A stretch of DNA of 62,203 nucleotides, taken from contig JAAUUW010000001.1 in the NCBI GenBank assembly GCA_012030735.1, positions 1-62,203 on the forward strand, given 5' to 3'. The notes beneath the pieces are model-generated. The model had not been told where the DNA came from. It saw only the letters and a program-made list of their open reading frames with translations, and did not search any database. A program made the translations under genes and the position numbers. Positions 41,225 through 55,398 of this stretch are shown one piece after another (position 1 is the first letter of the stretch; every line of letters starts with the position of its first letter). This stretch comes from Acaryochloridaceae cyanobacterium SU_2_1 (GTDB taxonomy: Bacteria > Cyanobacteriota > Cyanobacteriia > Thermosynechococcales > Thermosynechococcaceae).

Positions 41225-41716
41225 CTAGCAGATAATCTGCCCGAGGAGAAGGTTTAAACGCTGAGGGTTGGTGAGATATAAATAGCCAATCAGTGTTTCT
41301 AGCCCTGTTGCTTGTTGATAAGTTTCTAAAGCAACTCGTTTCGGCTTACCTGTGGCTGCATTTCTGCCTTGTTTCACGATTGTTTGTTCTGCTGGGGTGA
41401 GATGAGGGATCCATTGATGGGCAAGGGCTGCTTGAGTTTCAGCACGGACATAGGAGACGACTTGCTGGTGGTATTGATGGGATCGGCGGGGGGGGAGCAG
41501 ACATTGTTGGCGGATGTAGAGTTCGTAAACTGCATCTCCTAAATAGGCGAGGGCTGCAGGAGCAAGGGTCCGCACATCAACTGCAGCTAGGGCAGGATCA
41601 GGAGGAAATTCAGGAAGGGGGTGAGAGGCAATCACGATGGTCTCAAGAATCTGAGAAAACACTGTAGGGCTAGAGATGCGCACGAGACGAACCTGCTGAT
41701 ACCCTGTGGGGATCAA
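41225..41716 (-). CDS. mrnC: Mini-ribonuclease III
   Basis: 163-residue RNase III catalytic domain without an RNA-binding domain, used in 23S rRNA maturation. The signature LAYLGDAVYELYIRQQ has the metal-binding Asp and Glu, and KQGRNAATGKPKR and VALETYQQATGLETLIGYLYL complete the family pattern. The first 35 residues are not typical and the true start may lie slightly downstream. It lies upstream of rlmB on the same strand. Confidence 0.9.
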   Translation of the reverse strand: MIPTGYQQVRLVRISSPTVFSQILETIVIASHPLPEFPPDPALAAVDVRTLAPAALAYLGDAVYELYIRQQCLLPPRRSHQYHQQVVSYVRAETQAALAHQWIPHLTPAEQTIVKQGRNAATGKPKRVALETYQQATGLETLIGYLYLTNPQRLNLLLGQIIC

Positions 41717-41752
41717 GACCCGTTGTCAGGGTTGACATCAACGCTAGAGTGG

Positions 41753-42118
41753 CTACTCTTTGAGATTTGCGATCGCAGTATCCACATTGGGTTGCAAGGA
41801 CAGAAAGCTCTCCAGGCGCACTAGCTTCACAGTCTGAGTCACCCTGGGGTTAGAGACAATCTGAAAGGATGCACCAGAATTCTGAGTTCGTTTGGCGAGC
41901 TGAACCAAGGCTCCCAATCCTGAACTATCGATGAAATCAATTTTAGATAGATCCAAAATCACATTCAAGGGAGGCTCGTCAAAATGCTGGCTCATGACTT
42001 TGCGAAAGACAGGTTCGGAAAAAGCATCAAGCAAGCCAGTGAGGCGAAATAGCTGGTAATTTTCCCTGACATCTCGGGTGCCTCTTAAGCTAACGGTCAG
42101 GGCTAGCTGTTCAGGAAT
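41753..42118 (-). CDS. STAS-domain protein (anti-sigma factor antagonist type), apparent ATT start
   Basis: 121 residues. The reading IPEQLALTVSLRGTRD followed by ENYQLFRLTGLLDAFSEP and LDLSKIDFIDSSGLGALVQL is the STAS pattern, with the phosphorylatable Ser in DSSGLG. The frame is closed by TAG at 42128-42130, and no ATG, GTG or TTG lies before the conserved part. The AGGAGG at 42124-42129 is five bases from ATT (42116-42118), so ATT is the most likely start; starting at 42034 would delete a beta strand. A misread start codon is the alternative. It sits between mini-RNase III and a hypothetical gene. Confidence 0.8.
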   Translation of the reverse strand: MPEQLALTVSLRGTRDVRENYQLFRLTGLLDAFSEPVFRKVMSQHFDEPPLNVILDLSKIDFIDSSGLGALVQLAKRTQNSGASFQIVSNPRVTQTVKLVRLESFLSLQPNVDTAIANLKE

Positions 42119-42123
42119 AACGT

Positions 42124-42129
42124 CCTCCT
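42124..42129 (-). promoter_or_regulatory. Strong ribosome binding site before the ATT start
   Basis: AGGAGG on the minus strand, a perfect anti-16S match, five bases before ATT. It is the strongest such site I noticed in the window and decides the start of the STAS gene. Confidence 0.7.
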
Positions 42130-42373
42130 AGGGTTTTTACCAAAATTACGGATGATTTGCTGAGCGTTTAGTATAGGGCTTTTACGCGGTTTTTGTCCAC
42201 TACAGCCCAGACTAAAACTTAAGGCTAAAGCGAGTATAGACAAGATCAAGCTTAACCCTGCATAACCACTCCATCATGACACAGCCACGCAGATTGCTGT
42301 CCCCCCCCCTCAGGAGAGACTACCCTTGGTCTAACTTGTTCAGAATCGAACTTCTCAGGACAGCAAGGAGGGA

Positions 42374-43198
42374 TCATCCGCTCGTTTTTGCTATTTCCGT
42401 AAGTTTCTGATATAGGTCCGATTGCTCTGGTTCCGGAATAAATTTATGAATAGGATGGAATTTTAATGAATCCATGCCAGAGGTCTGATCCATCAAGGAG
42501 AAGTCTGCACCTTCATAAACATAGTCGCTGGTCACAGGATCGGCGAATTCAGGGTTGAAGGTCGAATCTGCTTGCCAATCAAAGAAGGGAGTCGAATTAG
42601 CTCCATAATCAGAGCTAATCTGGCCATTGTTATCGATGGGGGGTGATGAGGCAGAATTTGAGGTATTTAAATTCCCTAGCTCCTCAGTTTCAGATGTGGT
42701 GGAGAACCCAGAGGGTAGCCCCTTACCCTCCTGGAATGGCGATCCATTCCCCTGAACAACACCCCTGGCCCGCGCTGAGTCCAGGGGAGACTTGTTTTGA
42801 TCCCAAGCTGCTGCCTGAGAGAGGGCAGGATCGATGGGCAAGGGCAAGGGATTGCTGAAGTGAATATGGGGCAAATTATGGCAAACTAGCGCTTCAAACT
42901 CCAGATTAAAGTGACAACAAGGCTGACCACGCCGGTGCCAGGCCGCCAATAGTTGATCCACGCAAGTGGTTTTGTACCGGCCCTGGTAAAGGGACTCGAT
43001 CAAGGCTAATCGCACCCAGTTGTTAGAATAGATTGTGATCCAATGATCAAGGAGTTCCTCCTGGGTTTGCTCCACTATTTCGTGGCAATAGTAGGTTAGC
43101 AAGTCAGCAAGAGGCGTGATCAGAGGGGTTGAAGAGGATTCCGGCATGGGAACTGGCCTAGCAATAATTGAAAAGCATGAAAATTCTGCGATCGCCAT
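42374..43198 (-). CDS. Conserved hypothetical protein with disordered C-terminal half
   Basis: 274 residues. A folded N-terminal domain (about 25-120; LADLLTYYCHEIVEQTQEEL and YSNNWVRLALIESLYQGRYK) is helical and resembles cyanobacterial-only proteins I cannot name. From about 130 on the chain is rich in Ser, Asn, Pro and acidic residues and probably disordered. The start may be Met 18 (43147) rather than 43198. No membrane segment or signal peptide. Confidence 0.6.
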   Translation of the reverse strand: MAIAEFSCFSIIARPVPMPESSSTPLITPLADLLTYYCHEIVEQTQEELLDHWITIYSNNWVRLALIESLYQGRYKTTCVDQLLAAWHRRGQPCCHFNLEFEALVCHNLPHIHFSNPLPLPIDPALSQAAAWDQNKSPLDSARARGVVQGNGSPFQEGKGLPSGFSTTSETEELGNLNTSNSASSPPIDNNGQISSDYGANSTPFFDWQADSTFNPEFADPVTSDYVYEGADFSLMDQTSGMDSLKFHPIHKFIPEPEQSDLYQKLTEIAKTSG

Positions 43199-53418: not shown

Positions 53419-55398
53419 TTACTGTGTGCATAAGGGGCCTGGGCAAACATTCACAACTTCCTTCTGAGGGGGAGGCGGGGGTTGATAAGCTGGGGCTGGT
53501 TGCTGATAAGCTGGGGGTTGGTAGGCTGGGGCTGGTTGCTGATAAGCCGGGGCTGGTTCATAAACGGGACTATCGGGTGTAGAACTCCAGGTTGGGGCGG
53601 CTGCGGTTTGGGAGGGTGGTTGCCACTCTGGTTGGGGCGCTGGCCGATTGGCGATCGCAACTTCTGCCTCTTTTTGAACTTGATCGGCTACTTTCTTCCA
53701 ATATTCTGGGGCTTTGATTTGCTTAGTGGTTGCGATCGCATCCTCAGCCCGTCCTTCTTTCAAGGCTTTTTTGGCTGTGTCTATCTTTTTCTGATTGGCA
53801 TTATGTTTGTCTTGCCATTTTTTCGCTTCCAAAGTAGCTTGGGGTTTAATCAGACTCGACTGAGGAATGTGCTCCACCGAGGCCATCGCCTGTTTTAAAT
53901 TACCGTTGACCTCGTAATCACGTCGAGCATTTTGAAGCAAACGGGTTGACCAGTCACTTAATTTCTCTTGAGCCTGAAAATGATAGGTGCTTTGATCAGA
54001 AACCTTGGCCACCATTTGCACCGCATCTCCAAACTTCTTTTGAGCTGCCATTTGGTTAGCCTGCTCTAAATAGCACTTAGACAAAGGATTGAGTAACTGT
54101 TGACGAGAAGAAGTAAGGCTAGCGAGGGCTGATTCTCCCTTGTTAATACATTCAGAATATTTTTGTTGTCCATAGAGTTGATTCAGTTCGGCGGTCATGC
54201 GCCCCAGCTCGTTTGGCCTTTCTAACAGAAAAAATACCCCAGCTCCAGCACCTAAAAGAATTGTGGTGGGGAGCAACAGCCTCAGCGCAGTCCGCCGCCA
54301 TCGGGGCTGATGCTCTGCGCCATCGGCAGGGACCCGCAGTGTTTCTTGCTCTAACTGGACAGCCGTCTGAACATCAGTCTTCTTCAGCGCTGCTGCACTG
54401 GGGTCTGGCCAAGAATCTTGAACCTGGAAGATAGTAGCTAGTTCAGGTTTAGTCCCTTGCGAGTCATTTTTCACTGAAACAGCAACCGCTGGATCTGAGA
54501 TAGCAGGAGCAGCAACTTTAGCCTGGCTGATCTGCACTTGAGTGTCAGTTCCTGCTATTTCTGGAGCAGATTGAAGGGTTAATTTCGCTAAATCCGCTAA
54601 GACATCTGCTGCTGATTGATAGCGTTTACGGTAATCCCGCTGCACCATCTTGCTCAAAATCTCAGCTAGGACAGGATTAACCTCGGCATGATCTTCCCAG
54701 ATGATTTCATCTTCGAGGCTGCGCTCAAAAGTAATGGGCCTAATTCCTGTTAAACCATAGATGCCAATGGCACCCAGCGCATAAATATCGCTACTAAAAT
54801 GAGGCTTGCCTCGGATTTGCTCATCAGGCATATATCCTGGGGTGCCGACGGCAATGGTTGTCTCCACCAATTGAGTTTTACCTTGGTTGCGGCTAATTTC
54901 TTTCACTGCACCAAAGTCCAACAAAAAAACAGCTTGATCGGGCAATCGTCGAATTAAGTTGTCGGGCTTAATATCCCGATGAATGACACCTAGGCCATGG
55001 ACAAACTGAAGAATCTTTAAGCATTCCTCAAGAAAGGCTTGAACCTTAGATTGGGGCCAGCGCTTATCGTGACTGAGTTCTTTAGAGATGGAGGTTCCAT
55101 CAATGAATTCTTGTACTAAGAAGAAGTCTTGGTCTGATTCAAAATATGACAACAGATTAGGAATACGAGGATGGTTACCCAAACTGCCTAAAATTCTAGC
55201 TTCTTGCTCAAATAATCGTCGCGCAATTTTGAGAAAGGCTGGATCATTGGAATCAGGCTTGAGCTGCTTGATAACACATTTAGAACTTTCTGAAAGATAG
55301 GTGTCTTGGGCTAGATAAGTAGTCCCAAAGGCACCCTTCGCTAAAGTGTCCAGTACATGATATCTATATGCAATAACTTTGTCTGACATTTTAGCCAT
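53419..55398 (-). CDS. Membrane-anchored Ser/Thr protein kinase
   Basis: 659 residues. The eukaryotic-type kinase domain (about 10-275) has the P loop LAKGAFGTTY, VAIK-type Lys in CVIKQLKP, HRDIKPDN and DFGAVKE. A hydrophobic segment (about 369-392) anchors it, followed by a helical region with repeats. The last 70 residues are Pro/Gln/Tyr-rich with imperfect PAYQQPAPAYQPP units, ending VNVCPGPLCTQ. An outside C-terminal sensor and an inside kinase are expected. Target proteins cannot be read from the sequence. Confidence 0.92.
   Translation of the reverse strand: MAKMSDKVIAYRYHVLDTLAKGAFGTTYLAQDTYLSESSKCVIKQLKPDSNDPAFLKIARRLFEQEARILGSLGNHPRIPNLLSYFESDQDFFLVQEFIDGTSISKELSHDKRWPQSKVQAFLEECLKILQFVHGLGVIHRDIKPDNLIRRLPDQAVFLLDFGAVKEISRNQGKTQLVETTIAVGTPGYMPDEQIRGKPHFSSDIYALGAIGIYGLTGIRPITFERSLEDEIIWEDHAEVNPVLAEILSKMVQRDYRKRYQSAADVLADLAKLTLQSAPEIAGTDTQVQISQAKVAAPAISDPAVAVSVKNDSQGTKPELATIFQVQDSWPDPSAAALKKTDVQTAVQLEQETLRVPADGAEHQPRWRRTALRLLLPTTILLGAGAGVFFLLERPNELGRMTAELNQLYGQQKYSECINKGESALASLTSSRQQLLNPLSKCYLEQANQMAAQKKFGDAVQMVAKVSDQSTYHFQAQEKLSDWSTRLLQNARRDYEVNGNLKQAMASVEHIPQSSLIKPQATLEAKKWQDKHNANQKKIDTAKKALKEGRAEDAIATTKQIKAPEYWKKVADQVQKEAEVAIANRPAPQPEWQPPSQTAAAPTWSSTPDSPVYEPAPAYQQPAPAYQPPAYQQPAPAYQPPPPPQKEVVNVCPGPLCTQ
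53484..53560 (-). repeat. Imperfect Pro-rich repeat inside the kinase gene
   Basis: Units of about 21-39 bases (AGCTGGGGCTGGTTGCTGAT and variants) repeated three to four times, encoding PAYQQP/APAYQPP. They could vary in copy number by slippage. Confidence 0.7.

Follow-up and report, generated by a model that had tools for sequence, protein, structure and literature searches.

The minus strand of the 62,203 nucleotide stretch analysed here (the window; contig JAAUUW010000001.1 of Acaryochloridaceae cyanobacterium SU_2_1) harbors a gene encoding a STAS-domain protein, and the question that it raises is where its translation begins. When only the usual start codons ATG, GTG and TTG are allowed, the open reading frame opens at the TTG at 42034 and encodes 93 amino acids, compared to 121 codons when it is read from an ATT located further upstream, in the context TAGGAGG-ACGTT-ATT-CCT-GAA. 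A reading made from the sequence alone had placed the start at this ATT, on the basis of a perfect AGGAGG five bases before it, a TAG that closes the frame just upstream and a conserved N-terminal strand coded ahead of the first usual start. The AGGAGG and the TAG, which overlap, are found on the minus strand as described (Table 1), and comparison with orthologs indicates that translation almost certainly starts at ATT.

Table 1. Features of the STAS gene and its start region in the window.
Feature	Position	Strand	Basis or remark
Gene for a STAS-domain anti-sigma factor antagonist (ortholog of ssr1600)	41753..42118	minus	121 codons from ATT + stop
First usual start TTG, codon 29 (residue 28) of the STAS frame	42032..42034	minus	ORF list
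ATT start codon	42116..42118	minus	ATH in 237/238 distinct orthologs, CTG in 1
Di-pyrimidine TT at -2/-1	42119..42120	minus	YY in 232/238 orthologs
5-base spacer between AGGAGG and ATT	42119..42123	minus	sequence
Shine-Dalgarno AGGAGG, 5 nt before ATT	42124..42129	minus	sequence and ortholog conservation
In-frame TAG closing the STAS frame upstream, overlaps the Shine-Dalgarno	42128..42130	minus	sequence
-10-like TATACT	42170..42175	minus	consensus match, putative
-35-like TGGACA	42194..42199	minus	consensus match, putative

The translated product scores 62.7 bits against the anti-sigma factor antagonist model TIGR00377 (cut-off: 53.45) and matches the Pfam STAS domain (e-value: 1.4e-16). Its AlphaFold2 model (mean pLDDT: 91.8) contains strands at residues 10-16 and 21-29, where residue 1 is the one that follows ATT. 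In a Foldseek comparison of the model, the five top-ranking chains have TM-scores of 0.79-0.84 and belong without exception to SpoIIAB/SpoIIAA complexes (top hits: 1tid and 1th8). Furthermore, the phosphorylation-site motif D63 S64 S65 G66 is invariant in 36 rows. The STAS fold and the D-S-S-G site are shared with SpoIIAA and RsbV of Bacillus, and the window gene is a SpoIIAA-like anti-sigma factor antagonist and an ortholog of Ssr1600 of Synechocystis; by analogy with the latter, its product would be expected to bind to, and be phosphorylated by, an anti-sigma kinase. In the model, a protein started at TTG 42034 would lack strand 10-16 and the greater part of strand 21-29, and the N-terminal strand is thus coded upstream of the first usual start, as had been proposed.

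Upstream of the gene, the putative promoter boxes suggest a leader of about 45 nt, and a TATAMT or TATATT motif is located at most 150 nt upstream in 137/208 distinct orthologs, 125 of these at 30-59 nt. No Rfam match at an e-value of 1 or better is found in positions 41700-42450. A 48-codon open reading frame with a TTG opening (42103-42249, minus strand) overlaps both the promoter-like boxes and the STAS start, and its product resembles a small lipoprotein leader (L-S-F-S-L-G-C-S-G); since the DNA upstream of the STAS gene is not conserved among the orthologs, it has probably arisen by chance. The STAS gene is adjoined by a ribonuclease III-domain gene (41225-41716, minus strand), presumably mini-III like, which opens at a TTG with 54 residues ahead of the domain match and may have its true start farther downstream. 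A short tandem repeat with a unit of 36 bases (2.1 copies) is also present in the window at 53476-53558.

Orthologs were sought in 58 relatives, 56 of which have an ortholog-level match (G003 and G005 have paralog-level matches only), and in a phylum-wide sample of 386 genomes, 185 of which match at an e-value of 1e-20 or better, with one match at this level per matching genome. Together the two sets hold 221 genomes with an ortholog, of which 20 are in both and 218 were read, while in G291, G260 and G252 the ortholog was matched without a locus and stands outside the start codon counts. Among the 20 rows listed for the 201/386 genomes without a match, one (G154) is of the same class. Extra sources comprised titled genome contigs (33 loci) and 33 picocyanobacterial genomes, 30 of which have the locus. 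The codon directly before the conserved N-terminus is ATT in 173, ATC in 27, ATA in 17 and CTG in one of 221 loci, with three register exceptions, and merging of 13 loci of identical coding sequence leaves 208 distinct orthologs. The 30 further loci from the picocyanobacterial search read ATA (15), ATC (10) and ATT (5). When both groups of loci are combined and identical coding sequences merged, 238 distinct cyanobacterial orthologs, a number of related sequences rather than of independent events, are obtained with the window included, and these start with ATT (169), ATC (36), ATA (32) and CTG (1). The alignment of orthologous starts therefore bears out the ATT of the window, and ATG, GTG or TTG is found at the start position in 0/238.

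Four congeners (L002-L005) carry TAG-GAG-G..-ATT at the same place as the window, and together with the 236 further distinct orthologs with ATH they rule out a read error or an artefact of the metagenome-assembled genome. The proposed start is thus strongly supported, but it is not a local peculiarity of one genome, being conserved across the class. The three register exceptions (L119, L162 and L167; placed by eye) have their ATT one to three codons upstream of the fixed register; the additional codons separate it from the conserved N-terminus, and the Shine-Dalgarno sequence is moved along. Both loci from records titled Gloeobacterales (L079 and L082) have ATT; Gloeobacter-type lineages branch early among the cyanobacteria. 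The ATC and ATA codons are found mainly in the picocyanobacteria (47/68 rows, in the single family code f2), in which the Shine-Dalgarno sequence is weaker. The set includes small genomes that we take, judging by their size and sequence, to be Prochlorococcus and relatives, and the Prochlorococcus-like rows contain two adjacent candidate start codons, mostly ATC ATA, either of which could be the start. In the CTG lineage (L182), an in-frame ATG is located ten codons upstream.

The position of the ATH codon is also marked by features that are independent of the codon itself. AGGAGG is found exactly 5 nt before the start in 147/208 distinct orthologs, and a Shine-Dalgarno core is absent by the same rule in 3/208. 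Across 205 rows (the three register-shifted rows were left out), the information content amounts to about 0.10 bits per base between -60 and -21 and peaks at the Shine-Dalgarno sequence, while from the start codon onwards a coding pattern is observed, with means of 1.30, 1.42 and 0.51 bits at the first, second and third codon position, respectively. Pyrimidines occupy both -2 and -1 in 232/238 orthologs, and a di-pyrimidine at these positions has been suggested as a cyanobacterial initiation signal in the available text of PMC5622118. In 210/238 orthologs the start codon is followed by a codon for A, P, S, T or V, residues which are said in a source seen in part (PMC13339759) to permit removal of the initiator methionine.

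Three groups of control loci were read in the same way. The infC gene has a usual start in frame ahead of its conserved domain in 30/30 loci read (56 genomes have a match), and in 17/20 STAS paralog loci a usual start precedes the matched stretch, while in the other three an ATG lies within the stretch. A usual start is likewise present in 20/20 HATPase kinase loci; the 20 paralog and 20 kinase loci were hand-picked from longer lists, the kinases from 19/24 genomes. Because the infC, STAS paralog and kinase controls show usual starts, the ATH starts are not produced by the reading procedure itself. One infC locus (L244 of G006) starts with a TTG that is not aligned with the GTG of its congeners; in this locus that GTG is out of frame with the rest of the gene, beside a run of A, which is probably an assembly slip.

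Three other accounts of the start region were weighed against initiation at ATT. Translation from a usual codon further downstream (TTG or GTG at L-T-V-S-L; TTG 42034 in the window) would agree with the TTG stated for ssr1600 in the sections of Kurkela et al. consulted (PMC12329169), but it would leave unused six preceding codons that are conserved as protein, with residue 3 being E or D in 237/238 orthologs, and would place the Shine-Dalgarno sequence 23 nt away. Moreover, no usual start is found within the first 10 codons downstream in 116/238 orthologs, nor before codon index 22 in 101/238, and the TTG form of the window protein would lack strand 1 in the model; we consider a downstream start very improbable. 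It is extremely improbable that translation enters the STAS frame by a shift, close to the AGGAGG, from an out-of-frame open reading frame upstream. The 48-codon frame does overlap the start in the window, and an out-of-frame reading frame with a usual start is open over the STAS start in 157/208 orthologs, but this frame is ATG-started in only 59/208, where it is divided between both frames, the upstream DNA is not conserved, and the -10-like box of the window, with its putative leader of about 45 nt, falls inside the frame.

The ATH codon could, alternatively, encode an isoleucine within a longer protein that begins at a usual start further upstream, as the interchange of T, C and A is expected of a conserved isoleucine and the longer form is possible in 80/238 orthologs, in which an in-frame usual start is present upstream or the fetched DNA ends before a stop. 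The remaining 158/238, however, reach an in-frame stop first, with no usual start between, and there is little conservation upstream of -12. Codon changes were counted on a FastTree phylogeny of the 238 orthologs (coding sequence from the ninth codon past the start onwards), which is approximate, although the contrast is large: the start codon changes 17 times, versus 50 times at a conserved internal isoleucine in the same 234 rows and 54, 66 and 50 times at the third bases of T7, V8 (not valine in 16 rows) and G12, respectively. The internal isoleucine and G12 lie inside the columns from which the tree was built, which should lower their counts. A third-base G is found at T7, V8 and G12 in 36, 62 and 20 of the 238 orthologs, and at the start codon only in the single CTG. 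The probability of an internal isoleucine is, on these observations, negligible, and initiation at ATH is the reading that we retain.

The Synechocystis member of the family is described by Kurkela et al. (2025), according to whose text, as far as it was available (PMC12329169), Ssr1600 is the anti-SigC antagonist of Synechocystis and in its unphosphorylated form binds the anti-sigma factor Slr1861, thereby freeing SigC. The same source states that the TTG initiation codon of ssr1600 was changed to ATG in an overexpression strain, that cells with an excess of Ssr1600 grow more slowly in high CO2, and that the protein is reduced to traces in suppressors of the rpoZ mutant, its near-loss rescuing the mutant. 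From these effects it follows that the dosage of Ssr1600 matters. Of 20 residues numbered for Ssr1600 in PMC12329169, 19 or all are in place in four Synechocystis-like genomes when counted from codon 7 of the ATH-started frame (L149: 19/20; L164: 20/20; L165: 20/20; L171: 19/20). The window gene falls in the same set of best matches as these loci, and the two form one ortholog group. Since the numbering from codon 7 fits the stated TTG, the conserved ATT would lie six codons upstream of that TTG, and by this evidence the published start of ssr1600 appears to be placed six codons too far downstream. A TTG is present at the published place in L149 and L171 and absent in L164 and L165. The accessible part of the paper (PMC12329169) describes binding of Slr1861 by recombinant Ssr1600, numbered from the TTG, and phosphorylation of this protein by Slr1861, and the first six residues may therefore not be essential.

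HATPase_c_2 matches, representing potential kinase partners, are found in 24/24 genomes searched. In Bacillus, SpoIIAA shares an operon with its kinase, according to the portion of PMC12329169 that was available, whereas the best kinase match in the genome of the window is on another contig than the STAS gene (G000:C8). Two genomes of 1.7 Mb (G029 and G208) have a single HATPase_c_2 match and one ortholog-level match each, which suggests a minimal pair of kinase and antagonist, and their kinase resembles one that the majority of the remaining loci read contain (L-G-L-[HQ]-E-A-[LI]-[VI]-N-A). The identification of the kinases that are retained even in the small genomes as Slr1861 was rejected, as the residue numbering of Slr1861 fits 0-4/16 in L304-L319 and L323; the best fit is to another kinase, L321 (7/16).

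The sequence-only reading had compared the start with that of infC. This comparison holds for the type of start codon, as infC of Escherichia coli also starts with ATT, of the class discriminated against by IF3 (PMC5472188, in the part available), but it does not extend to autoregulation: infC encodes IF3, which controls its own synthesis, while the product here is an anti-sigma factor antagonist, the infC gene of the same genome is located elsewhere (G000:C199), and cyanobacterial infC has the usual starts described above. A closer precedent is sigR of Streptomyces, which, in the available text of PMC5472188, has a GTC start with a conserved AGGAGGTG and is repressed by IF3, and for which replacement of the start by ATG, GTG or TTG leads to an excess of SigR and breaks the balance with RsrA. 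Both systems combine a regulator of sigma switching with a non-canonical start, a strong conserved AGGAGG, misannotation and a partner balance that matters, and in both a minority carries another non-canonical codon (GTT in 2/34 for sigR; PMC5472188, same portion). They differ in that sigR encodes the sigma factor itself and has GUC within Streptomyces, whereas the gene studied here encodes an antagonist and has AUU, AUC or AUA class-wide, with IF3 control suggested by analogy.

The strong ribosome site, the codon class and its conservation point to an ancient, deliberately weak AUH translation start across the class. In the mechanism that we propose, the AUU would be positioned by the strong Shine-Dalgarno sequence and the di-pyrimidine, and belongs, with AUC and AUA, to the class of start codons at which IF3 destabilises initiation. 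A strong ribosome site combined with a weak codon would give a low, IF3-sensitive synthesis of the antagonist, of which the low level is plausible, and the antagonist would be kept scarce relative to its kinase partner, such that phosphorylation rather than an excess of protein decides the SigC switch. The place and conservation of the start come from comparison, and the function of Ssr1600 and the discrimination by IF3 in E. coli and Streptomyces from the papers; IF3 sensitivity and a role of dosage in cyanobacteria would follow by analogy. In agreement with discrimination by IF3, a codon other than ATG, GTG or TTG stands at the start in 238/238 distinct orthologs, as judged by conservation. 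We regard the ATT start together with this mechanism of dosage and IF3 as reasonably probable.

It is also quite possible, if the less probable account, that the AUH codon is a true start that merely fixes a low rate, with its conservation reflecting dosage alone and without the level of IF3 or the state of the ribosomes being a signal. All of the sequence evidence fits this equally well, and the available portion of the Streptomyces study shows no condition under which sigR is induced by relief of its start (PMC5472188). Against it, AUU, AUC, AUA and the one CUG are codons against which IF3 is said to discriminate, but they are equally the set of weak starts. At the other extreme, initiation fidelity could be wired into sigma choice, with the AUH start making the antagonist of the SigC switch a read-out of IF3 relative to free 30S subunits; the capacity for translation or the growth rate would then feed directly into the choice of RNA polymerase holoenzyme, a proposal that we hold to be rather unlikely. 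If it is true, selection would have kept the start non-canonical since before the split of the Gloeobacter-type lineages, in contrast to infC, which has a usual start in this clade.

Leader structure could add control at the Shine-Dalgarno sequence: in 207 folded leaders the predicted mean unpaired fraction, calculated without a shuffled control, is lower at the Shine-Dalgarno sequence (0.39) than in the leader (0.53), in the coding part (0.49) or at the start (0.63). Pairing of AGGA with a TCCT near the second codon of the window gene was dropped as a candidate, as many orthologs have GCT or TCT as their second codon. Besides infC, another, divergent IF3-like gene is carried by 13/58 genomes (e-values of about 5e-47 to 6e-38; G040:C3, G012:C44, G004:C216, G002:C1, G055:C254, G030:C174, G056:C496, G046:C1, G043:C12, G015:C2, G036:C1, G035:C28 and G053:C1), partial copies are found in G001 and G003, and a divergent IF3-like gene is the only match in G014. 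A second IF3 with other start codon preferences, if such it is, would bear on the ATT start.

Starts of this kind have been described in cyanobacteria. Eight Nostoc genes were revised to ATA or ATT starts in the accessible text of PMC8557916, which cites Sato and Tajima (2012) for ATT and ATA starts. Among the matches listed in a search of open-licence PMC papers, none reports an ATT start for an ssr1600-type gene, and an earlier detection is possible. The device is of a known kind in a new gene, in which the start is unusually old, general and deeply conserved.

A class of start codons that gene prediction mostly omits is conserved across the cyanobacteria in a regulator that controls growth, and annotations that admit ATG, GTG and TTG alone are therefore likely to give it a wrong N-terminus. 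The Ssr1600 construct in which TTG was changed to ATG would bypass the weak start and, in addition, the first residues. Synechocystis strains and an Ssr1600 antiserum exist, according to the consulted sections of PMC12329169. If control by IF3 holds true, the AUH start would couple sigma switching in Synechocystis directly to the initiation of translation.
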